Part shown: positions 1-31,236 of the stretch, one piece after another
How positions within the stretch are numbered: the stretch's first letter is position 1
Layout of the letters: every line of letters begins with the position of its first letter
Source: an uncultured Geobacteraceae bacterium
Lineage (GTDB): Bacteria > Desulfobacterota > Desulfuromonadia > Geobacterales > Pseudopelobacteraceae
Direction: 5' to 3'
Length of the DNA: 32,508 nucleotides
Assembly (NCBI GenBank): GCA_903925005.1
Contig: CAIYDX010000116.1
Location: 1-32,508 of the forward strand
Position numbers and translations under genes: made by a program
Notes under the pieces: model-generated
The model's input: only the letters and a program-made list of their open reading frames with translations
Database searches by the model: none
What the model was told of the DNA's origin: nothing

Positions 1-806
1 AACTCCAGATTGCAGCAGGTGCATGGCGGTCGTGTGCCGGAATGTATGTGGTGTAATCGTTCTGGTAAGTAGTGACGGACATGTTGTTGCCGCTGCTGCC
101 ACCCGTTGGGCAATCATATAACGGAGACCATAACGAGAAAGGCGTTCGCCTCTGGCATTTATAAAGAGCGGTACATTGTCGGAGAATCGTATATTCCGGT
201 CTTCGACTGTTGACTTAATTGTTTGTATCGTCTCTTCCCATAGTGGGCAGGTTCGCTCACGCTGCCCTTTCCCATGAATCAGCACATAATGAGGGCGGCT
301 GAAGCGGATATGGTTGACGTTGAGATCCACGATTTCCTGTGCCCGTGCTCCGCTGTTATAGAGTAGGCGCAACAGAGCATCATCCCGCCGACCTGATGTT
401 TTTTGGACATCGATATGTCTAAAAATATGCAGCACCTCTTCCTTTTCCAGGTACCCCAATACATGCCTAGCGTGACGCTTGAACGGTACGGCAAGAACGG
501 ACTGACAGTGGGCGATGAAACGGGGATCGGTAGAGGCGAGATACCTAAAGAATGCATGGATAGCCGCCAGTCTGACGTTGCGGGTACCGGTGCCATTTTT
601 TCGACCCAGTCCAAGATGCTCCATGAATTTCCGGACAAGTTGCGCGGTAATATCCTCCACTACGAGATCGGTGCACAGTTTGTGGCACTGCTTGACAGCA
701 AATTGCAGCAGAAGTTTCAGGGTATCCCGGTAGGACAATACCGTATTTGGACTCAATCCCCGCTGTGAAACCAGATGATCTTCAAAAAAGTGACGTATGG
801 GCAGAC
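1..806 (-). pseudogene. Tyrosine recombinase ritC, main part, separated from its start by a transposon and cut by the window edge
   Basis: The minus strand is open from 806 to the window edge and encodes about 268 residues of a tyrosine recombinase. An N-terminal SAM-like core-binding region has the motif LVSQRGLSPNTVLSYRDT. The catalytic domain follows, with box I arginine in YNSGARAQEIVDL, a lysine in HGKGQRER, and the HxxR box in TPHTFRHTTAMH near the edge. The tyrosine nucleophile should lie just outside. No start codon with a ribosome site exists here, because the native start is at 4318 on the other side of the transposon. The open frame runs on into transposon DNA as far as a stop near 930. 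Joining 4318-4297 to 806 restores an uninterrupted protein that begins MPKNINIGLPIRHFFED. In a RIT element this would be the third recombinase. It is probably inactive as it stands unless a fortuitous start inside the transposon is used. Confidence 0.85.
802..806. repeat. Left target-site duplication CAGAC of the DDE transposon
   Basis: CAGAC lies immediately outside the left inverted repeat and matches the five bases just outside the right end (4292-4296). Collapsing the two copies rejoins ritC in frame, which is independent support that this is a true target duplication. Confidence 0.85.
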
Positions 807-831
807 TGAATCTCAGCTTTATAAATGATGT
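807..831 (+). repeat. Left terminal inverted repeat of the DDE transposon
   Basis: Starts TGAATCTCAGCTTTATAAAT and continues to a TGATGT at 826-831. It pairs with the inverted sequence at 4267-4291, with 16 of 25 positions identical and no gaps. Confidence 0.8.
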
Positions 832-869
832 AAAGGGTATTATTTTAACGGCAGGATAATTGAGGAACA

Positions 870-921
870 GGGCAGGAGCCCCCTCAAATAGCTTGCCGGC
901 TCCACGAGAGTTCTCCTGCCC
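870..921 (+). other. Compound hairpin in the left transposon end
   Basis: GGGCAGGAG (870-878) is the perfect inverse of CTCCTGCCC (913-921). GGAGCC (875-880) is the inverse of GGCTCC (898-903), so two partly exclusive stems can form between the left inverted repeat and the first gene. A smaller stem, CTACC/GGTAG, then overlaps the AGGAG ribosome site of the 946 gene and might mask it. The function is unknown; a structured leader that shields the transposon genes from outside transcription is one possibility. Confidence 0.5.
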
Positions 922-945
922 CTCTACCTATGGGGGTAGGAGAAT

Positions 946-1506
946 ATGCTATCAAAACTTCTTCAGACAGCCAACCTTTTTCACCTCCTTTTTTTCATCG
1001 ATTCAGAACTTGCCGCCATCAAACGTTCAGCTGGTTGTCCCTATTGCGGTGGCCGTCTTCATCAGTCGAACTACATGCGCCAACCCCGTGGCGGTCCAGT
1101 CGGGCTGCCGGAGGAGTATTACCTTCGGTGGAGTTTGTGCTGCGGTCGTGAAGGTTGTCGCCGCAGAAGTATGCCGGAGTCATGTTTGTTTATGGGTCGG
1201 CGAGTGTACTGGCGTTGTGTTGTGCTGATAGCAACAACTCTTGTTCAGCACAGGTCTGAGAGTCAGAGCATTGGCCAGCTTTCCAGGCTGATCGGCATAT
1301 CGAGAAAAACCATTATGCGCTGGTTTGATTATTTCACAGATTTATTTGGGAGCAGTTTTGAATGGCTGCGGATTCGTGGCTTTTTGCCGGCTACTGTTTC
1401 CAATGACAGTCTTCCCGCAAATTTTCTGGAGTATTGCCTTATGCAGTCCCAGGATGCTCTGAGCGGTTTGTCTATGTGCTGCCGTCTGTTGGGTAGAGGC
1501 GGGTAA
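946..1506 (+). CDS. Zinc-ribbon and HTH protein of the transposon (resembles DUF6431 proteins)
   Basis: A 186-residue basic protein with a ribosome site AGGAG just before the ATG. Residues 31-34 are CPYC, followed by a GRLHQSNYMRQPRG stretch and then a second cysteine group (C65, C66, C71 in LCCGREGCRRR), which together look like a zinc ribbon. Residues about 108-130 (QLSRLIGISRKTIMRWFDYF) look like a helix-turn-helix. From memory the cysteine pattern matches DUF6431 proteins, which often neighbour DDE transposases and ExeA-like ATPases. It is the first gene of the transposon, 124 nt before the transposase. Tn7/Tn5053 relatives carry the zinc-containing target selector TniQ/TnsD in an equivalent role, and I see no other candidate here, so a DNA-binding role in target choice is a reasonable guess and no more. 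It has no recognisable catalytic residues. Confidence 0.7.
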   Translation: MLSKLLQTANLFHLLFFIDSELAAIKRSAGCPYCGGRLHQSNYMRQPRGGPVGLPEEYYLRWSLCCGREGCRRRSMPESCLFMGRRVYWRCVVLIATTLVQHRSESQSIGQLSRLIGISRKTIMRWFDYFTDLFGSSFEWLRIRGFLPATVSNDSLPANFLEYCLMQSQDALSGLSMCCRLLGRGG

Positions 1507-1630
1507 TAAAAATCACGATATATGCGGGGTGATATTAGTCGGTCTGAGGCACGCAGAAGATGGGAACTGGCTGAATAATCAGCGATTGTGTTATGGGGTG
1601 GCATTCCATTTTTAATAAAGGAGCCATCTG

Positions 1631-3088
1631 ATGTCAGATCAATCGAGAAAATTAAGGAACTGGGCGCATCTTCGCTTTTCCATTGTCGGCCCTCTACTCG
1701 CACAGCCTCCAGAGCGGGGTGAACTTACCCAGGAAATTGAGCGTCTGTCACAGCAAAGTTATCCTCATCCAACCCGTCACGGAGAGATGATCAGCTTCGC
1801 AGTATCGACGGTAGAGCGCTGGTACTATGCGGCATTGGGAAATAGCGACCCTATAGCCGCGCTCAGCCGCAAAGTGCGTACCGATGCCGGTATACGCAAG
1901 GCTATCGGCGAAAAACAGCAAGAAATCCTTAAAACGCAATACGGGAACTATCCCAACTGGAGCGTAAAGCTGCATAGCGACAACCTTGCAGCATTTCTGA
2001 AAGAGCACACGGAGTTAGGTGATGTGCCGTCATACGATTCCGTACGGCGTCTGATGCGCACCAAAGGATGGCACAAGAGACGAAAACCGAAGACCGAGGG
2101 ACAGCAGCGTGCGGTCGAACGACTCGAATCACGTGAAGTGCGTAGTTATGAATCACAATTTATCCACAGCTTGTGGCATCTTGATTTCCATGAGTGCAGC
2201 AGAAAGGTCTTGGATTCAAAGGGACAATGGTACAAACCGAAAGCACTGTGCGTCCTCGATGACCGCTCCCGTCTTTGCTGCCACATTCAGTGGTATCAGG
2301 GGGAGAGTGCCGAAGAGCTCATTCACGGACTTATTCAAGCATTCCAGAAGCGCGGATTGCCAAGATCCCTCATGACCGACAACGGCAGCGCAATGAAAGC
2401 TGGCGAGACCGGGAACGGGCTCCTGGGTCTCGGGATCGTCCATAGCAAAACATTGCCGTACAGCCCATATGTCAATGGCAAACAAGAATCTTTTTGGGGA
2501 AAAGTCGAAGGCCGACTAATCGCCATGCTTTCAAACTTAAAACATCTCACCCTCGAAAGTCTCAATAACTTTACCCAGGCATGGGCCGAAATTGAATATA
2601 ACCGGTCCGTTCATGCCGAAATTAAAGTATCGCCAATTGATCGACTCCTCAGCGAAAAGACAGTTGGTCGAACCTGCCCTGACACTACCGTTTTGCGTCG
2701 TGTGTTCACGATTGAAGCCACCAGAAGACAACGTAGAAGTGATGGCACTATATCGGTTGATGGCATCCGATTTGAAGTACCTTCCCGGATGCGTCACTTT
2801 GAGAAGCTTACCGTCCGGTATCGTTCCTGGGATCTCAGTCAGGTCTATCTGGTTGACCCGAAAGAGGGACAGGTCATCGCAGAAATATATCCCATGGACA
2901 AGATAAAAAACTCACGAGGTTCACGGCGTCAACTTAACCCTGAACCCGACACCGTCGAATGTGCCGCATCCGACAAACAGGATGCCATCCCGCCACTTCT
3001 GCGAAACATCCTCGCAACATATGCCGCCACCGGTCTCCCCCCAGCATATATCCCCAAAAGTGACCAAAAGGAGCATGACGATGTCTGA
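1631..3088 (+). CDS. DDE transposase (rve integrase core, TniA/TnsB-like)
   Basis: A 485-residue protein preceded by AGGAG eight bases before its ATG. Residues about 1-160 are predicted DNA-binding, with a winged-helix-like region at 125-150 (DVPSYDSVRRLMRTKGWHKR). The RNase-H-fold core follows with the acidic triad D185 (SLWHLDFHEC), D250 (RSLMTDNGSAM) and E286 (VNGKQESFWGK). The 35-residue spacing between the last two is the classic D35E arrangement. The C-terminal part (about 385-440, with ISVDGIRFEVPSRMRHFE) is a Mu-transposase-type beta-barrel. The enzyme should bind the terminal repeats and join transposon ends to target DNA. Its last codons overlap the ATPase start by 8 nt, so the two are translationally coupled. 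All catalytic residues are present and the gene looks intact. Confidence 0.9.
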   Translation: MSDQSRKLRNWAHLRFSIVGPLLAQPPERGELTQEIERLSQQSYPHPTRHGEMISFAVSTVERWYYAALGNSDPIAALSRKVRTDAGIRKAIGEKQQEILKTQYGNYPNWSVKLHSDNLAAFLKEHTELGDVPSYDSVRRLMRTKGWHKRRKPKTEGQQRAVERLESREVRSYESQFIHSLWHLDFHECSRKVLDSKGQWYKPKALCVLDDRSRLCCHIQWYQGESAEELIHGLIQAFQKRGLPRSLMTDNGSAMKAGETGNGLLGLGIVHSKTLPYSPYVNGKQESFWGKVEGRLIAMLSNLKHLTLESLNNFTQAWAEIEYNRSVHAEIKVSPIDRLLSEKTVGRTCPDTTVLRRVFTIEATRRQRRSDGTISVDGIRFEVPSRMRHFEKLTVRYRSWDLSQVYLVDPKEGQVIAEIYPMDKIKNSRGSRRQLNPEPDTVECAASDKQDAIPPLLRNILATYAATGLPPAYIPKSDQKEHDDV

Positions 3089-3920
3089 CAAAAGACTGTT
3101 GGCCCTCTACGGACTCAAATGGAATCCGTTTCATTCCAATATTCCGGCGGATGTCATTTGGAATCCACCACAGCTCGGATCATTTCCCTTCAGATTGGAG
3201 AATCTTGTCATGGATGGCGGATTCGCCATGATCAGCGGAGAACCTGGACTCGGGAAATCAAAAATACTCCACCTTATGGCCCAGCAGCTCGCTAAACTGC
3301 AGGATGTTGTCGTTGGGATCATGGAACGGCCACAGAGCACCATCAACGACTTCTACCGTGAGATGAGCGCACTCTTCGGGGTCAATCTCTCACCTGCAAA
3401 TCGTTATGGGGGATTCAAAGCCCTCCGGGAACGATGGCATGATCATATCCGTACCACGCTCTTCAGACCCGTCCTCCTCATCGATGAAGCCCAGGAAATG
3501 GCCACTCCAGTGCTAAATGAAATTAGACTGTTATCAAGCACAAATTTTGATTCACAGGCCATTCTCACCACTGTGCTCTGCGGAGATGACCGACTACCGG
3601 AAAGATTCCGTACTGCACCACTGGCATCTCTGGGTACACGCCTCCGACTGCGGCTACCACTCGAACCGCTTCACAAGGATCATATCCTCGAATACATACG
3701 GCATGCACTGGAACAGGCTGGTGGGAAGCATCTCATGACAGAATCTCTCATGGAAACGCTCGCCGAGCATTGCTGTGGAAACTTGAGGATGCTCAACCAG
3801 ATGGCCGCAGAGCTCCTTGCCGTCGCAGCTGAAAAACAATTGCCCAGAATGGATGAAGGACTCTATCTCGAAATATTCTCACGTCAGCCGCAAACCAGAA
3901 AGCAGATCAGAAAAGGATGA
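3081..3920 (+). CDS. AAA+ transposition ATPase (TniB/TnsC/ExeA-like)
   Basis: A 279-residue P-loop ATPase. Walker A is GEPGLGKS (residues 53-60) and Walker B is VLLIDEAQEM (131-140), followed by a sensor-like stretch at ILTTVLCGDDRLPERF and the C-terminal AAA lid. The N-terminal LYGLKWNPFHSNIP is typical of ExeA/TniB-like ATPases. I chose ATG 3081 because AGGAG lies 7 nt upstream; the in-frame ATG at 3075 is only 1 nt from it. The start overlaps the end of the transposase gene. In relatives this ATPase forms ATP-dependent filaments on target DNA, recruits the transposase and gives target immunity. Here it should partner the 1631 transposase. Confidence 0.88.
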   Translation: MSDKRLLALYGLKWNPFHSNIPADVIWNPPQLGSFPFRLENLVMDGGFAMISGEPGLGKSKILHLMAQQLAKLQDVVVGIMERPQSTINDFYREMSALFGVNLSPANRYGGFKALRERWHDHIRTTLFRPVLLIDEAQEMATPVLNEIRLLSSTNFDSQAILTTVLCGDDRLPERFRTAPLASLGTRLRLRLPLEPLHKDHILEYIRHALEQAGGKHLMTESLMETLAEHCCGNLRMLNQMAAELLAVAAEKQLPRMDEGLYLEIFSRQPQTRKQIRKG

Positions 3921-3971
3921 TCATAAGACGCGCGGAACAACATGAACGATTCTCACAGAAAGGAGAAAACA

Positions 3972-4139
3972 ATGAACTTCTATGAAGACGAAGCGCTGGA
4001 GCAAAAACTGGAGGAATTGAGCGATCAACTGGGGTATCTGGTGCTCGACCTTCTCGTGGTAAGCCTGAAAAAAGTGGTACGGGAACAAGGTATCTATAGC
4101 GAGATTATGGATGCGAAATTAGACCGTGATCCGTTCTAA
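3972..4139 (+). CDS. Small acidic helical protein of the transposon, function unknown
   Basis: A 55-residue protein with a good ribosome site (AAAGGAG, 6 nt before ATG), 51 nt downstream of the ATPase on the same strand. The sequence is largely predicted helix with an acidic N-terminus (MNFYEDEALEQKLEELSDQL), a hydrophobic middle (YLVLDLLVVSLKKVV) and an ending DAKLDRDPF. I recognise no domain. Its position as the last gene of the unit, before a possible terminator and the right end, suggests an accessory transposition or regulatory protein. An upstream in-frame start at 3942 is possible but lacks a ribosome site. Confidence 0.6.
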   Translation: MNFYEDEALEQKLEELSDQLGYLVLDLLVVSLKKVVREQGIYSEIMDAKLDRDPF

Positions 4140-4196
4140 ATCTTCAAAGGGACATCACCAACTGAAAATTGTTTGATCCCGTTAACGTTCAACGTG

Positions 4197-4229
4197 AGGT
4201 GGGTACAAGAAGTGCTCACCTTTCTTTTT
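4197..4229 (+). terminator. Possible terminator after the transposon genes
   Basis: AGGTG (4197-4201) pairs with CACCT (4217-4221), and an alternative GTGAG/CTCAC stem overlaps it. A T-rich run, TTCTTTTT, follows. The stem is short and the loop is 15 nt, so this is a weak call. Confidence 0.4.
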
Positions 4230-4239
4230 AACCCGATAC

Positions 4240-4272
4240 AAAACATCAGGCAGCATGCTGACTAAAACATCA
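4240..4272 (-). repeat. Two subterminal 9-bp repeats (TGATGTTTT on the minus strand), probable transposase-binding sites
   Basis: AAAACATCA occurs on the plus strand at 4240-4248 and 4264-4272, 24 bp apart. The outer copy overlaps the right inverted repeat and shares TGATGT with the left repeat. Iterated binding sites at one end are typical of Tn7- and Mu-like transposons. The binding role is inferred. Confidence 0.6.
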
Positions 4273-4291
4273 AAAAGCGAGCTTACACTCA
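4267..4291 (-). repeat. Right terminal inverted repeat of the DDE transposon
   Basis: On the minus strand it starts TGAGTGTAAGCTCGCTTTTT and reaches TGATGT at the same distance from the end as in the left repeat. The shared bases TGA, AGCT and TGATGT are the likely transposase-contact core. Confidence 0.8.
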
Positions 4292-4296
4292 CAGAC
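4292..4296. repeat. Right target-site duplication CAGAC of the DDE transposon
   Basis: Second copy of the 5-bp CAGAC duplication, directly after the right inverted repeat. On the minus strand it forms GTCTG, part of codons 8 and 9 of ritC. Confidence 0.85.
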
Positions 4297-4318
4297 CAAT
4301 GTTAATGTTCTTCGGCAT
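4297..4318 (-). pseudogene. 5' fragment of ritC (start codon and first codons)
   Basis: On the minus strand GGAGGACACA precedes an ATG at 4318-4316 that opens MPKNINIGL. The frame then meets the transposon and stops after nine codons. This is the true ritC start: a strong ribosome site, a 17-nt overlap with the end of ritB, and an exact in-frame join to the fragment at 806 once the transposon and one CAGAC copy are removed. Confidence 0.85.
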
Positions 4319-5297
4319 TGTGTCCTCCCTTACGTCGCTTCAAAAATGGAATAGCGAAGTGATTTTTGAACCGCGTACTCGTCTTCTCAAGAAGTTCTGC
4401 CGTGGCATGGAGATAAATCTCAGTGCCGCTGAGAGCAGTGTGGCCGAGATACGTTGCCAATAGCGGTAACTTGGCGTTGATGTTTTCTCCTTGTTGATAC
4501 CACTGAGCCAATCGACTTACGGCAAAGGTATGGCGAAAGTCATGTATGCGTGGTCCCCGTTCCCCCTTAGGACCGCGAAGCCCGACGTTTCTAATAATTT
4601 CCAGAAAGATTGAACAAATCCGTCCCGGCCTGTATGCCCGTCCGGAGGGACTTATAAAGACAGGTGCAGTCGGAATGGTGGGGACTTTTGCCACCTCCCT
4701 TTGGTGTAAAAAATCCGCAAGATGTTGAGCTGTAGATGGCGACAGGGGTACATATCGGGATTTCATGAACTTGGTTTCCCGAATCGTTAATAACTCACCT
4801 TGGATGTCTACATCTGCCAACGTCAACTTCATCGCTTCCCCAATACGGAGTCCGGTGCTGTAAAGCAGGCCGATGACCGTAGAGATAAGAAATGGGCGTA
4901 AACTGCCATCTGGCCCGATCTTTCTGGCAGCATCCAGAATCAAGCAAACCTCCTGCTGAGAATAGATATAAGGAGCTGGACGGTTTCTACGAGGAAGGAA
5001 GCTCTGGTGAATAACACATGTTCGCGGATCGAAATGGCTCAGATACATACAGAACAGTCGCAATATGGACATACGGTTGAGTCTGGTTCCAGTACTCAGA
5101 TGTTCCATGGATTTGAACCAGCGATCAGCAATTTCAGCTGTAATCTGACATCCTGGTTTAAGTTCTCCCATCAGAAAACGATCAAGGCCGGTGAGTATTT
5201 TATGATCACTGTCACCCTTGCGTCCAAGAGCAACGCGCATCTCCCAAAAATCCTGGAGCCTTGATGCTACGGGACTACGGAAAGCACAAGTTGCCAT
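4302..5297 (-). CDS. Tyrosine recombinase ritB
   Basis: A 331-residue tyrosine recombinase. Residues about 10-100 are the SAM-like core-binding domain and 105-310 the catalytic domain. Catalytic residues are R151 (YSTGLRIGEAMKL), K176 or K179 (RETKFMKSRYVPL), H252 and R255 (RIHDFRHTFA), H286 (ATYLGHTALS) and the nucleophile Y295 (TEIYLH). All boxes are present, so the enzyme looks active. Its ATG at 5297 follows the ritA stop by 3 nt, with an AGAGAGG ribosome site inside ritA, and its end overlaps the ritC start by 17 nt. This packing implies the trio is made together and perhaps assembles as a mixed complex on the element ends. The individual roles of the three RIT recombinases are not well established. 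Confidence 0.88.
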   Translation of the reverse strand: MATCAFRSPVASRLQDFWEMRVALGRKGDSDHKILTGLDRFLMGELKPGCQITAEIADRWFKSMEHLSTGTRLNRMSILRLFCMYLSHFDPRTCVIHQSFLPRRNRPAPYIYSQQEVCLILDAARKIGPDGSLRPFLISTVIGLLYSTGLRIGEAMKLTLADVDIQGELLTIRETKFMKSRYVPLSPSTAQHLADFLHQREVAKVPTIPTAPVFISPSGRAYRPGRICSIFLEIIRNVGLRGPKGERGPRIHDFRHTFAVSRLAQWYQQGENINAKLPLLATYLGHTALSGTEIYLHATAELLEKTSTRFKNHFAIPFLKRRKGGHNAEEH

Positions 5298-5300
5298 GTT

Positions 5301-6557
5301 TCACCTCTCTTTCGGCCAAGGCATGACCACTTGACGAAGCATCTTGAGGTCTGCCTTGGCATAGATAAAGGTGGTGTTCAGGCAGCGGTGCCCTAACACA
5401 TCGGCAATTGCTTTCATAGGTGAATCTTGTGCCAATGCCCGAATGGCCCAGGAATGGCGCAAGGTGTTCGACCCACTCTTGGGCTTTTTGACCCCCGCTA
5501 TTTTCATGTACTTGCGAACGGTCATTGATACATCCATGGTATTGAGAGGGAAATAGGGGGCTTTTACACCAAGGAATATTTCTCGGAACTGAGTTTCGGG
5601 GCGGTGGTGAAGATAAGCGACGATTGCTTCACCCACAGCTTCCAAGAGTGGAAGCACGACTTCTTTGCCTCCCTTTCGAGCACGTATCAAAATAGTGGAC
5701 CGGGGCCAGTCAATATCCTGCAAAAGCAATTCGACTACGCTCATGCCCCGGATTCCGTAGGCCATCATTAGCAGCATGATGGCGGTATCCCTTGCACCGA
5801 CAGCAGTTCCTTTGGGAATTATATTGAGGATACGTTGTAAGTCGGAATCTTCCATCCCCTTGGGCAGTGATGCCAGACGATAGGCAGGGGTGGAGGGGAT
5901 CACTCCGGAAAAATCCTTGGTGACATATCCCTGGCGAGCACAGAATCGGAGAAGCCCACGGAGGTATCCCGCTAAATTCCGCAGATTCACCGGACTTTCC
6001 TTGATGTGCTGCTTGACATATGTCTCGACATCTTCGGCTTTCAGTGTTTTCATACCCTGGCGTGTAGCTCTTTCTCCCAGACCATCGAGAAACCGACACA
6101 ACACAATTCGATTATTCTGAATCGTATTCTCCTTAAGTTGGCGGTCTTCACGTAAATATTGCAGGAATGGATCGAGTACCCAACGGTACAAGGTCGGTAT
6201 TGGTTTGGGATCGACCGGTCTAATTGCTCCCACGTCAACTAGGTACGACAACAAGTGTTTCAGGTGGCCCCACACCGCTCCTCTCCCAACATAATGTCTG
6301 CTTGTCGTTCTGAAATCTGCAAGATAGGCATCAATAAATGCTTCAAAATGTGCAGGAGCGATCTCTTTACTGCGAGTGATCCCCTGATCGACAAGAAAAC
6401 TGTTAAAAAGACAACAGTGGCCAAGAACTGGCCTAGCTAAATCTTTCGAATACCCCCTCTCTTTCATACGTGCCGCAAGTCCGTCAAAATATGGACCTAA
6501 TGGTCCTCGCCGAAAATCCACCAATGTCCGTCGTTCTTTGTACCAGTACTCAAGCAT
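5301..6557 (-). CDS. Tyrosine recombinase ritA
   Basis: A 418-residue tyrosine recombinase and the first gene of the trio. I chose ATG 6557 because AGGAG precedes it by about 7 nt; the longer frame to 6644 has no ribosome site and runs into element-end DNA. An N-terminal extension (about 1-120) precedes a second core-binding region (130-220) and the catalytic domain (235-410). Catalytic candidates are R270 (AYGIRGMSVVELL), K295 or K298 (RARKGGKEVVLPL), R367 (SNTLRHSWA), H390 (VLGHRCLN) and nucleophile Y399 (TFIYAK). The usual first histidine of the HxxR box is N364 here (N-T-L-R). Coupling to ritB is tight. Weak-consensus DNA upstream presumably holds its promoter. Confidence 0.87.
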   Translation of the reverse strand: MLEYWYKERRTLVDFRRGPLGPYFDGLAARMKERGYSKDLARPVLGHCCLFNSFLVDQGITRSKEIAPAHFEAFIDAYLADFRTTSRHYVGRGAVWGHLKHLLSYLVDVGAIRPVDPKPIPTLYRWVLDPFLQYLREDRQLKENTIQNNRIVLCRFLDGLGERATRQGMKTLKAEDVETYVKQHIKESPVNLRNLAGYLRGLLRFCARQGYVTKDFSGVIPSTPAYRLASLPKGMEDSDLQRILNIIPKGTAVGARDTAIMLLMMAYGIRGMSVVELLLQDIDWPRSTILIRARKGGKEVVLPLLEAVGEAIVAYLHHRPETQFREIFLGVKAPYFPLNTMDVSMTVRKYMKIAGVKKPKSGSNTLRHSWAIRALAQDSPMKAIADVLGHRCLNTTFIYAKADLKMLRQVVMPWPKER

Positions 6558-6614
6558 AGTCTTTCTCCTTTCTCCCTGAATAAATGCATCTAAGAGAAGG
6601 ATACCGGGCTCAGA

Positions 6615-6709
6615 ATTATGTGGAGAGAAAATACGACAACACATTGGTAAACGGTGAAGGATACCTATCGGAAAGGCGGAACTTCACATTACTTGCAACT
6701 TCACATTAC
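6615..6709. repeat. Recombinase-site-like repeats at the right end of the RIT element
   Basis: A 13-bp sequence, AACTTCACATTAC, is repeated directly at 6680-6692 and 6697-6709, 17 bp apart. A related inverted copy, ATTATGTGGAG (6615-6625), matches the reverse complement of the direct repeats at 8 of 11 positions. The last copy ends 2 bp before the radC tail. Clustered direct and inverted sites are what a multi-recombinase end would need. The binding role is inferred. Confidence 0.6.
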
Positions 6710-6711
6710 GT

Positions 6712-6867
6712 AATCATCCCACCGGCGATCCAGCCCCCAGCAGCGAGGATATCGCCATCACGCGCCGCCTGAAAGAGGCCGGTGAGATCATGGGGATCAA
6801 GGTGCTGGATCATATCATCGTTGGTGACGGGGAATTCTTGAGTTTTGTGGAACGGGGTCTATTGTAG
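6712..6867 (+). pseudogene. radC: 3' remnant of radC (JAMM-domain protein)
   Basis: The plus strand reads 51 codons from NHPTGDPAPSSEDIA through a VLDHIIVGDGEFLSF stretch to VERGLL and a stop. This is the conserved C-terminus of RadC, a JAMM/MPN metallopeptidase-fold protein historically linked to DNA repair. The fragment begins inside the metal-binding HxHPxGxxxPSxxD signature, so the start, the helix-hairpin-helix region and most of the JAMM domain are gone from this side. The break coincides with the RIT element end, so the missing 5' part should lie beyond the left edge of the window if the insertion was simple. The TauE gene begins 16 nt after the stop, which suggests the two were once co-transcribed. 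Confidence 0.85.
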
Positions 6868-6883
6868 TCCGGGGAGATTCACG

Positions 6884-7675
6884 ATGACCGTATGGTTCAT
6901 GTATATCGCCCTCGGGGCGTTCGCAGGAGTTCTGGCCGGCTTGCTCGGTGTCGGCGGCGGGTTGATAATCGTACCGGTGCTCACGTTCATTTTTACCGCT
7001 CGACATCTGCCGGAAGCGCACATTCTTCATCTGGCTCTGGGCACATCCCTGGCCTGCATCATGTTTACCTCGGTCTCCAGCCTGCGGGCCCATCATGCGC
7101 GAGGCGCCGTTGACTGGGCCGTGGTGCGGCGCATCACCGCCGGCATCATGGTCGGCACCTTTGGCGGGTCATGGGTTGCAGCCCAGCTTTCAACCCGCTT
7201 CCTCAAAGGTTTTTTCGTCTTTTTTCTCTTTTATGTCGCTATCCAGATGCTGCTCAATATCAAACCGAAACCGCATCGCCAGCTCCCCGGTCAAACGGCG
7301 ATGTTCGGGGTCGGCGGAGTGATCGGCGGCGTTTCCAGCCTGGTCGGCATCGGCGGCGGCAGTATGTCGGTCCCTTTTCTTATCTGGTGCAACGTTGCCA
7401 TGCACCGGGCTATCGGCACATCTGCGGCAATCGGTTTTCCAATCGCCTTGGCCGGAGCGGCCGGCTACCTGGTCAACGGCCTGTCGGTCACGCTGCCACC
7501 CTACAGCCTCGGCTTCGTCTATCTCCCCGCGCTGGTCGGCATCTCCGCCGCCAGTGTCGTCACCGCCCCGCTTGGCGCAAAGCTGGCGCACAGCCTGCCG
7601 ATTGACAAATTGAAAAAGATATTCGCCCTGCTGCTGATCGTGATGGGGGCCAAAATGCTGCTGAGCCTGTTTTGA
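6884..7675 (+). CDS. TauE/SafE family membrane permease (probable anion or sulfite exporter)
   Basis: A 263-residue hydrophobic protein with about eight transmembrane helices in two related halves. Each half opens with a glycine-rich motif, GLLGVGGGLIIVPVL near residue 21 and SLVGIGGGSMSVPFL near residue 152, which is the signature of the TauE/SafE family. Members move sulfite, sulfoacetate or related organosulfur anions across the inner membrane. I chose ATG 6884, with GGGGAG 7 nt upstream, over an in-frame ATG at 6845 inside the radC tail. The substrate cannot be deduced. Loss of the radC 5' region may have removed its original promoter, so expression could now depend on the inserted element. 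Confidence 0.85.
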   Translation: MTVWFMYIALGAFAGVLAGLLGVGGGLIIVPVLTFIFTARHLPEAHILHLALGTSLACIMFTSVSSLRAHHARGAVDWAVVRRITAGIMVGTFGGSWVAAQLSTRFLKGFFVFFLFYVAIQMLLNIKPKPHRQLPGQTAMFGVGGVIGGVSSLVGIGGGSMSVPFLIWCNVAMHRAIGTSAAIGFPIALAGAAGYLVNGLSVTLPPYSLGFVYLPALVGISAASVVTAPLGAKLAHSLPIDKLKKIFALLLIVMGAKMLLSLF

Positions 7676-7762: not shown

Positions 7763-7996
7763 ATGCCGCAAGCCGTTTCAAAATCCCAGTTCAAACCGCA
7801 CTCTCTGGAGTATTTCCGTAAAATTGAGCAGAGTGGTGAGGAGCTGGTTATAACCGATCATGGCCGTCCGGTTCTCAAGGTTATTCGTTATGTGCCGGAT
7901 CCGGAAGAATGTTTTATAGGACTGCGCAATACCGTGCTGCAGTATGATAATCCTCTTGAGCCAGTTGGGGAGGATTGTTGGGAGGCGCTTAAATGA
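7763..7996 (+). CDS. Phd/YefM-type antitoxin
   Basis: A 77-residue protein with a TGGAGG ribosome site. The first half, with FKPHSLEYFRKIEQSGEELV followed by ITDHGRPVLKVIRY, is the Phd/YefM DNA-binding fold, in which a helix and the 'ITxHGRPV' strand bind operator DNA. The C-terminal half (PDPEECF through EDCWEALK) is acidic and should wrap the toxin. The stop overlaps the toxin start by 4 nt (ATGA), so both are made together. The palindrome 19 bp upstream is the likely operator. Confidence 0.88.
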   Translation: MPQAVSKSQFKPHSLEYFRKIEQSGEELVITDHGRPVLKVIRYVPDPEECFIGLRNTVLQYDNPLEPVGEDCWEALK

Positions 7997-8388
7997 TAGT
8001 GCTTGATACCCACACCCTGCTTTGGTGGGTAAATGACCCGACAACCCTGAGCAAACCGGCGAAACAGACGATTGATGCCGCAGTGGAGTCAAGGTCGGTA
8101 TATGTATCCAGTATCACTGCCTGGGAAATAGCTTTGCTCGTAGAGCGCGGTCGTCTGCGGCTGGCTCTGGATGTCCGCGACTGGCTCTGCCGTTGTGAAG
8201 CGTTGCCGTTTCTCACATTTGTTCCGATAAACAACGCCATTGCCGTTGAATCCGTGCGCTTGCCGGACTTCCCTCACGCCGACCCGGCCGACCGTATTAT
8301 TACAGCTACCGCTTTGTCACTCGGCGCAGCACTGGTGACAAAGGACGATAAACTGCAAAATTATCCCCACGTAAAGACCATTTGGTAA
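7993..8388 (+). CDS. VapC-type PIN-domain toxin (ribonuclease)
   Basis: A 131-residue PIN domain. The acidic metal-binding residues are D5 (IVLDTHTLLWW), E45 (ITAWEIALL), and D97/D100 (HADPADRIITATA), with TKDDKL near the end. VapC toxins are Mg-dependent endoribonucleases that typically cleave tRNA or rRNA and are held inactive by their partner. The WEIALLVERGRL and ADPADRIIIATA-like motifs are typical of the subgroup paired with Phd-type antitoxins. It overlaps the antitoxin gene by 4 nt and appears intact. The RNA target is unknown. Confidence 0.9.
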   Translation: MIVLDTHTLLWWVNDPTTLSKPAKQTIDAAVESRSVYVSSITAWEIALLVERGRLRLALDVRDWLCRCEALPFLTFVPINNAIAVESVRLPDFPHADPADRIITATALSLGAALVTKDDKLQNYPHVKTIW

Positions 8389-28863: not shown

Positions 28864-31236
28864 TTACCTGTCTAAATCCGCTAAGACAAAATCTATCGAC
28901 CCTAATATCGCCAGGAAATCCCCCAGCAGCCAGCCGCGGCTCATGACCGGCAGTGCCTGGATATGGGGGAAACTGGGGGTTTTGATCCGCACCCGATAGG
29001 GGATGTTCAAGCCATCCGAAACAACAAAATAGCCGTTTTCCCCTTTCGGGGCCTCGATGGCGCTGTAGTTCTCCCCCTTCGGCGCGGACATGCCGCGGGT
29101 GCTGTTGACGAAGTGATGAATCAACGATTCGATGTCATGCAGGGCATCTTGCTTCTGCGGCAGCACATAGCGGTAGTCGTCGGTCATCCAGCGTCCGGCT
29201 GGCATATTATCGAGACATTGCCGGACGATGCGGAGCGACTGGTGGATCTCCTCCATGCGCACCTGGTACCGCGCCCAGCAGTCGCCACCTTCAGCGGTCG
29301 GTATATCGAAGTCGAACCGGTCGTAGCCGGAATACGGCATCTTCCTCCGCAGATCCCACTCCATGCCGCACGCCCGCAGATTCGGGCCGGACAGCCCCCA
29401 TTCCATCGCGTCCTCCAGGGTGATCGCGCCGACCCCTTTCAACCTTGCGATAAAGATCGGGTTCCTGTCCAGCAGGGTATGGTACTCCTTCAACCGAGCC
29501 GGCATCCAGGCGAGAAAATCCCGCACCGGCTGTTCCCAGCCCTCCGGCAGGTCTTCGGCCACGCCGCCGATGCGGAACCAGGCCGGATGCATCCTGCCTC
29601 CGGTGATCATTTCGACGATGTCGAAGATCTTTTCCCGATCGGTAAAGGTGTAGAAAACCGGCGTCATCGCGCCGATATCGGCGGTAAAGGTGCCGAGCCA
29701 GACCAGATGATTGGCGATTCGGAACAGTTCGGCCAGCATGACGCGAATCACCTCGGCCCGCTCCGGCACCATGATACCGCAGAGCCGTTCGACCGAATGG
29801 CAGTAGGCCAGGTTGTTCTGCACCCCGGAGAGATAGTCGATACGGTCGGTATAGGGGATGAACTGGTTCCACTGCTGGCGTTCGGCGATCTTTTCCGCCC
29901 CGCGATGGTGATAACCGATATCGCTCTCCATATCGACGATCTCTTCACCATCCAGCTTCAGCATGCAGCGGATGATGCCGTGAGTGCCGGGATGCTGCGG
30001 CCCCAGATTGAGGATGAGGCTGTCCGGATCGTTAGTGTTGAAGAACTGCTCCGCCGGCAGCGACTGGAAGCGGCGGGCATCGTCAAGGGTGTAGGGGGGC
30101 ATCTCGGTGGCCCGGAAAGGGTGCGACTTGCGCAGCGGATGCCCCTCCCAGTCATGCGGCATCAGAATGCGCCGCAGGTTGGGATGACCGCTGAAGCGGA
30201 GCCCGTACATGTCGTAGACCTCGCGTTCGTACCAGTCGGCATTGGCAAAAACTCGGCTCACACTGGGGAGCGGGGTGGCATCGTCCGGCAACTCGGTCTT
30301 GATGCGGATGTGGCCGGGGATGTCGAAGTTGAGCAGGTGGTAATTGACACTGAACGCCTTGAACTGTTCCGGGGCACGGCGGCAGGATTCATCGACGCAG
30401 GCGATATCCTCCAGGCGCCTGAACGGGGCGGTGGTGCGGCTTTTCAGGCTGCGCAGCACATCGGGGAGCAGTTCCGGCCGGACCCGATAGGTGAGCATGT
30501 CGGTGGCGGCCTCATCGCGCCGGACGCTGTCACCGAAACGCTCCTCCAGCTCGCCATTCATTCCGAAGTCGGGATAGGCATGTTTCGGTGCCGGTGGGCG
30601 CCACATCTCGTCGCTGCGCGGCAGCCATTCGCGGGGATGGCCGACCGAAACGCCACGGATGGCGGTTCCCTCCACTCCGGGCCCACGGGTGTCGCACGTT
30701 TTGGAGACCCCCTCCAACAGCAGCGGTACGGTAGTTCCCTGGCTGCCGCCGGCAAGATGCAGCACCGGCCGGGCCGGGCGTTCCCCGCTTCTTATCTTTT
30801 CCTGCAGCAGCATCAACCCTTGCAGAAAGGCCTCGGGACGTGGTGGACAGCCGGGGATATAGACATCCACCGGCAGGAACTGGTTGACCCCCTGGACAAC
30901 GCTGTAGACATCGTACATGCCGCCGGAGTTGGAACAACTTCCCATGGAGACCACCCAGCGCGGCTCGGCCATCTGCTCGTACAGGCGCAGGATATTAGGG
31001 GCCATCTTGCGAAAAGGGGTACCGGCAATCACCATAAGGTCCGCTTCGCGCGGGGTGCCGCGCAAGACTTCAGCGCCGAATCGGGAGACATCGTAACGCG
31101 AGGTGAACGAAGTCATCATCTCGACGAAACAGCAGGAGAGCCCGAAAAACATCGGCCAGAGCGAGTTCGCCCGCCCCCAGTTGATCAGGTCGTCCAGATT
31201 TGTCAGCAGAATATTGTCAGGAATTTCCTGATTCAT
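28864..31236 (-). CDS. nuoBCD: Fused NADH:quinone oxidoreductase subunits B, C and D
   Basis: A single 790-residue frame joins three normally separate subunits. The NuoB domain (about 1-150) binds cluster N2 through C35, C36, C101 and C130 ([23 protein letters not shown]). A linker of about 80 residues (150-230) has no recognised fold. The NuoC domain (about 230-385) has the signature [18 protein letters not shown]. The NuoD domain (about 405-790) begins [12 protein letters not shown] and includes the quinone-site histidine region [15 protein letters not shown]. The fusion fixes 1:1:1 stoichiometry at the quinone site. nuoCD fusions are common; B-C-D fusions are known mainly from Geobacter-type complexes. 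It lies 88 nt after nuoA because a repeat intervenes. Confidence 0.95.

Follow-up and report, generated by a model that had tools for sequence, protein, structure and literature searches.

The DNA analyzed here (the window) is the entire contig C116 of an uncultured Geobacteraceae genome (G000), 32,508 nucleotides long. Its left part holds a RIT element, i.e., an element of three adjacent tyrosine recombinase genes (ritA, ritB, and ritC) with terminal repeats, and the ritC gene of this element is split by an insert of four genes (Table 1). With high confidence as to its identity, its mode of insertion, and its mechanistic class, we take the insert for a complete-looking Tn6049-like transposon with a core of the Mu/Tn7 class, which entered ritC with a 5-bp target duplication.

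Table 1. The insert and the RIT element that it interrupts (positions in the window)
Feature	Position	Strand	Basis
ritC, main part, running off the contig start	1..806	-	Match to C278; rejoined frame
Target duplication CAGAC, left copy	802..806		Direct reading; empty site in C278
Very probable Tn6049-like transposon, 3,485 bp	807..4291	+	Ends common to C158, G033:C171, G021:C420 (left end only), and G004:C112 (right end)
Left terminal sequence, motif TG-N6-AGC-N9-GATG	807..834	+	Motif as at both Tn6049 ends
Leader hairpin 1	849..898	+	Leader folding
Leader hairpin 2, pairing the ORF1 ribosome-binding site	910..945	+	Leader folding; consensus pairs in aligned leaders
ORF1, 186 aa, invariant Cys 31, 34, 66, and 71 plus HTH-like part	946..1506	+	Sequence, profile, and fold searches
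tnpA, 485-aa DDE transposase (rve + Mu C-terminal)	1631..3088	+	PF00665, PF09299; phrog_310 3e-43; TnsB and retroviral integrases by profile
tnpB, AAA ATPase, MuB/TnsC-like, overlapping the tnpA end	3081..3920	+	PF13401 (AAA_22); phrog_296 1e-19; PDB 8xvb 4e-6 and TnsC 5e-3 by profile
ORF4, 65 aa, ending in LDRDPF	3942..4139	+	Second ATG at 3972
Terminator-like hairpin and T-run	4196..4222	+	Hairpin/T-run scan plus folding
Right terminal sequence, motif TG-N6-AGC-N9-GATG	4264..4291	-	Motif as at both Tn6049 ends
Target duplication CAGAC, right copy	4292..4296		Direct reading; empty site in C278
ritC, severed 5' end with start codon	4292..4318	-	Rejoined frame; 4292-4296 is the second target copy
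ritB, 331-aa tyrosine recombinase	4302..5297	-	PF00589; equal length in C278
ritA, tyrosine recombinase, 447 aa from first start codon	5301..6644	-	PF00589; 424 aa in C278
RIT right terminal repeat	6675..6709		Match to the other end of the RIT in C278

The initial annotation had described the insert as a transposon flanked by CAGAC on both sides, with imperfect inverted repeats in its outer 25 bp, whose removal together with one CAGAC copy would restore ritC. Direct reading bears this out: the terminal 25 bp are identical at 16 of 25 positions without a gap, and the minus-strand frame rejoined from 4318 is open as far as the contig start. With the ends fixed in advance, we estimate the chance of a 5-bp match at about 1 in 1,000. 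An uninterrupted ritC, proposed there as a check, is present in the same genome on contig C278, which carries a RIT element bounded by 33-bp inverted repeats and coding for RitA (424 aa), RitB (331 aa), and RitC (338 aa), the last of which matches a tyrosine recombinase model. The three adjacent tyrosine recombinase genes of a RIT element are accounted for by ritA and ritB of the window and by RitC of this intact copy. C278 matches window positions 1 to 801 at 85% and positions 4302 to 6760 at 77%; exactly 10 bases, 5 of the target and 5 of the flank, lie between the two matched stretches, and its alignment with the joined flanks has zero gaps in 160 columns around the junction. The target bases of C278 are TAAGC, not CAGAC, and it thus represents the empty site of a paralogue rather than of the same allele. 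The RIT end region also has DNA matches in contigs C170, C372, C211, C183, and C210 of G000, so the genome has several RIT-like ends.

DNA matches to the element itself were recovered from 10 of the 147 relatives' genomes searched, G000 included. A second proposed check was a search for further copies of the unit. The two other copies that are nearly full length, in contigs C158 of G000 (89%; window 807 to 4293) and C171 of genome G033 (87%; window 806 to 4292), have different flanks and share nothing with the window beyond the ends except 1 or 2 chance bases. Together with the empty site, they confirm that the element runs exactly from 807 to 4291. The copy in G033, on what is apparently the same contig as locus L042, has a 4-bp duplication (CGCC), and the model that scores best with the fragments on its two sides is in both cases that of the family 2B encapsulin shell, below the full-length cutoff. 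The C158 copy, the sole further full-length one in G000, interrupts a gene read by eye as an IS21-type istA, whose uninterrupted form lies in contig C127. Its left junction is exact against C127, its left end departs from the terminal motif in lacking GATG, and it has no duplication: the 8-bp right flank fits neither a duplication nor the interrupted gene. Since only those 8 bp lie within the contig, the copy is unusable as a replicate and was dropped as a second test of the duplication. The sequence GATATTCGTG spans the left junction of C158 (L002, 1 to 150), recurs about 20 bases inside the element, and is absent from the window copy. Partial matches comprise the left end alone in G021:C420 and the right end with part of the right half in G004:C112. 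A lone left end of 35 bp, 89% identical, was observed at L032 185 to 219 (G014:C127), the remainder of the element having no DNA match in the 2,000 bases read. A search for viral carriers of the element gave 35 pattern matches, none of them confirmed.

The core of the element consists of tnpA and tnpB. The TnpA family profile matches retroviral integrases and TnsB, while that of TnpB matches the target DNA activator B, i.e., MuB, and more weakly TnsC. PHROG 310 and PHROG 296, annotated as "transposase" and "DNA transposition protein," are families linked to Mu. The pairing of an rve plus Mu C-terminal transposase with a MuB/TnsC-like ATPase places the element in the Mu class. Membership of the IS21 family was rejected: NF033546 reached 41.9 bits against a cutoff of 160, and the ATPase matches AAA_22, with no IstB model at an E value of ≤0.1. 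The Tn5053/Tn402 family, characterized by tniA, tniB, tniQ, and a resolvase gene, was likewise rejected, since no TniB, TniQ, or resolvase model was matched by the four genes at the same E value. A structure model of TnpA (pLDDT 68, pTM 0.37) was too poor and went unused, and a search of a defense gene library gave only weak ATPase-type matches.

The closest named element in plasmids is Tn6049 (Cupriavidus metallidurans CH34; plasmid pHS87a), with whose transposase TnpA is 47% identical over 463 columns. Like Tn6049, the window element is about 3.5 kb long and carries four genes in one direction in the order ORF1-tnpA-tnpB-small ORF, although the fourth small protein of Tn6049 has no BLASTP match to ORF4. 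The motif TG-N6-AGC-N9-GATG, first seen when the window was compared with Tn6049, stands at both ends of each and recurs with 0 or 1 mismatch at the ends of many further members. In the literature, Tn6049 is given as a 3.5-kb element with 12 copies and an ATPase gene named gspA (PMC2864759), the pHS87a copy as having 12-bp imperfect repeats and 4-bp direct repeats (PMC4739549), and the transposition module of the Tn6049 group was called noncategorizable in 2018 (PMC6210171). The reversed nesting is described from Acidithiobacillus ferrooxidans, where a relative of Tn6049 has a RIT element inside its transposase gene (PMC3414803). The window element had initially been put forward as a clean type example, but Tn6049, with the same gene order, has precedence, having been published in 2010 (PMC2864759).

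Among better-known systems, the MuA/MuB module of phage Mu shares with the window element a DDE transposase with a Mu C-terminal domain and an ATPase, that of the window element matching the MuB-type target activator by profile; unlike Mu, whose target duplication is 5 bp, the window element is 3.5 kb long, has no phage gene among its four ORFs, and belongs to a family with duplications of 4 to 7 bp. To TnsB and TnsC of the Tn7 and type V-K CAST core, the similarity by profile is distant, and the window's four genes matched no TnsA or TniQ model.

To gauge target duplication across the family, Tn6049 copies were taken from 13 records (11 of them from a 23-record search) and one empty site. Six of the 13 records were scanned for all copies, and after repeats of one insertion had been merged, 17 distinct insertions were left, with duplications of 4 bp in six, 5 bp in five, 6 bp in two, 7 bp in two, and none in two. 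One insertion with a 6-bp duplication has its exact empty site in another plasmid. For two duplication-free copies in strain Ni-2, cross-pairing of flanks, a sign of inversion or deletion, gave no partner when four copies were compared. Non-Tn6049 copies were tallied with a single end profile, each end having to reach 12 bits and the flank a minimum of 8 bp; 21 of the 66 loci entered were accepted, and L050, in which the ends of two different copies had been paired, was left out. In the remaining 20, duplications of 4 to 6 bp are present in 7 (the window, L042, L043, L060, L075, L134, and L142) and absent from 13, compared with a chance of about 0.005 per copy, by our own reckoning, for a 4- to 8-bp match at fixed ends. 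Below the threshold, a duplication is found in L066 (5 bp) and L137 (4 bp) and none in L065, L069, L076, and L078, among others. The missing duplications in 13 of 20 copies, like that in C158, weigh against our reading of the element; they may reflect frequent rearrangement after insertion or chimeric metagenome contigs. Hence, the target size that the initial annotation regarded as fixed by the sequence holds for the ritC site, where the duplication is 5 bp and falls in the Tn6049 range, but it is not a fixed property of the element (4 bp in G033:C171; 4 to 7 bp or none elsewhere).

Upstream of the core, ORF1 is a conserved zinc/HTH gene without a known family and is one of the features that are new at the level of the family. 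It is present in 46 of the 53 loci examined; five of the seven lacking it (L071, L079, L081, L087, and L090) start inside tnpA, and L082 and L088 make up the rest. Its four cysteines are invariant among 40 aligned sequences. No Pfam, NCBIfam, or PHROG family scored above its cutoff, sequence searches gave no convincing PDB relative, and Foldseek returned 0 matches at an E value of ≤0.001 with a confident model (pLDDT 91). A TniQ-like identity is supported by neither sequence nor fold. Our guess is that ORF1 might be a DNA- or target-recognizing subunit.

The leader between the left end and ORF1, with a hairpin on the ribosome-binding site, is a second new feature of the family. In the window, it folds strongly (z = -5.2, or -4.0 under other shuffles); across 26 leaders, 18 have z values below -2, and the mean is -2.7. 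In an alignment of 19 leaders selected from the 26, the ribosome site is hidden by six consensus pairs, of which five persist in every leader and the sixth in 16; two pairs are changed on both sides, but the majority do not vary, and covariation contributes only a small term. The hairpin would probably hide the ORF1 ribosome site and so keep expression low. The strand that pairs this site is also able to pair farther upstream, for instance with GGGCAGGAG (window 849 to 945 and leaders of relatives), an alternative that could constitute a two-state switch. Rfam gave no match at the gathering threshold for window positions 1 to 7000. At the other end of the element, the terminator-like hairpin is one of 7 such sites in the scanned region, against 3.8 in shuffles.

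The third new feature is the position directly behind tnpB, a slot that in many loci holds either a replication-type gene or a small protein, the latter often with an acidic-Phe end. By similarity to representatives, a replication-type gene stands there in 28 of the 48 loci with tnpB: an AAA_25 helicase-type ATPase in 18, a RepB primase in 4, and a DnaG-like CHC2/Toprim protein in 6. All 10 slot proteins checked against Pfam scored above the cutoffs. The right end was located beyond the slot gene in 23 of 32 loci, which comprise these 28 and 4 of the fresh loci described next (weakly in L065 and L078); in the remaining nine, seven contigs end within about 210 bp of the slot gene, and L056 and L088 do not. 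Later genome searches, matching 4 of 395, 4 of 392, and 10 of 377 genomes, contributed 14 fresh loci, L113, L133, and L145 having been dropped as repeats of known contigs, and 4 of the 14 have a replication-type slot gene. By parsimony on a quick TnpA tree (51 rows, 44 labeled; 17 of 48 inner branches unsupported), the slot content has changed at least nine times. Individual loci show further arrangements: in L112 (2896 to 4924), a helicase-type ATPase and a DnaG-like primase apparently both follow tnpB; in L059 (5079 to 6329), the slot protein is a DnaA N-terminal domain fused to AAA_25; and in L043 (3701 to 4954), a long ORF on the opposite strand, transposase-like by eye, lies beside the leftover Toprim half of a primase.

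In the 30 loci without a replication gene, we looked by a fixed rule for ORFs of 40 to 130 aa at the tnpB stop; 19 loci have them (22 ORFs) and 11 have none. An acidic-Phe end, defined as a C-terminal Phe and one or more acidic residues among the final six, is found in 11 of the 19 loci versus 45 of 3,545 control ORFs, and in 9 of 17 once three near-identical window-type copies are merged; a Pro-Phe end is found in 7 of the 19 versus 21 of the 3,545. The loci whose small ORF has no acidic-Phe end are L046, L050, L055, L058, L083, L114, L143, and L144. As the pattern had been seen before the rule was written, only the fresh loci provide a semi-independent test, and there the end is present in 4 of 7, several of the fresh loci being mutual homologs. 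BLASTP separates the small slot proteins into three groups or more. The acidic-Phe end resembles the C-terminal tip of SSB.

A Mu/Tn7-type reaction is well supported by these sequence comparisons. TnpA would very probably bind the TG...GATG sites at the ends and join the 3' ends to a staggered target, with TnpB, like MuB or TnsC, binding target DNA and activating TnpA. The product may then be finished by replication across the element, with the gene behind tnpB helping to bring in or start replication; the slot gene would be the small ORF4 in the window and a primase or helicase-type ATPase in relatives. Three observations suggest such replicative completion: the slot genes, the absence of any match to a resolvase among the four genes of the window, and the reported deletions adjoining retained Tn6049 copies (PMC13192273). 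Transposition may thus be replicative, with a restart function built in, as gene content and a short tail suggest. More broadly, but only as a tentative proposal, the Tn6049-like elements could be a widespread Mu-type class with an exchangeable replication-restart slot, occupied by a primase or helicase-type ATPase that the element itself encodes or, as in the window and Tn6049, by a small protein whose SSB-imitating acidic-Phe tip recruits the host restart machinery, and with replicative movement and a variable stagger of 4 to 7 bp.

A quite possible alternative, though we would stop short of calling it probable, is Tn7-like cut-and-paste movement in which the genes behind tnpB are ordinary cargo without a role in transposition. 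Clean duplications at many sites and the TnsB- and TnsC-like profiles agree with such movement, whereas the window's four genes have no TnsA-like model among their matches. Window-type elements, whose slot has no long gene at all, likewise fit the cargo view, but the long slots that are listed hold a replication-type gene in 21 of 21 loci, of three kinds by Pfam and similarity, despite at least nine changes of content, and random cargo would be expected to be less uniform in function. Far less credible is an IS481-family insertion sequence with accidental neighbors. Public annotation places the Tn6049 transposase in that family, and its model NF033577 is the best NCBIfam match of TnpA, yet the score is 85 bits against a cutoff of 224, and most of the loci examined have tnpA accompanied by ORF1 and the ATPase within related ends. 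The least probable explanation, to which we give hardly any credence, is that the duplication and the restored frame are artifacts of a contig misjoined at a repeated element, since for all that the assembly is of metagenome type (6.16% contamination, 419 contigs) and C158 appears chimeric or rearranged, both parts of ritC match one intact paralogue in register and gap free at the junction, and a 5-bp duplication with a kept frame is unexpected from a chimera.

As for replicative completion with a restart slot, it is chiefly phage Mu that has shown how a replicative transposon passes its branched product on to the replication machinery; Mu depends on host restart proteins for this handover. 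If the slot does serve this step, a primase, a helicase-type ATPase, or an SSB-like tail would share one exchangeable position in cellular transposons, and the handover would be directly testable by removal of that gene. In the open-access literature, as judged by titles and the beginnings of abstracts, we found no described transposon with a replication slot or an acidic-Phe tail. Genomic copies of the Tn6049 group also become easier to delimit, since the ends are now defined, a third gene proves conserved, and the duplications have a range of lengths.

Elsewhere in the window, two small adjoining ORFs (7763 to 8388) resemble by eye a PHD/PIN toxin-antitoxin pair, and a single 790-aa ORF on the minus strand (28864 to 31236) resembles, again by eye, a fusion of NuoB, NuoC, and NuoD.
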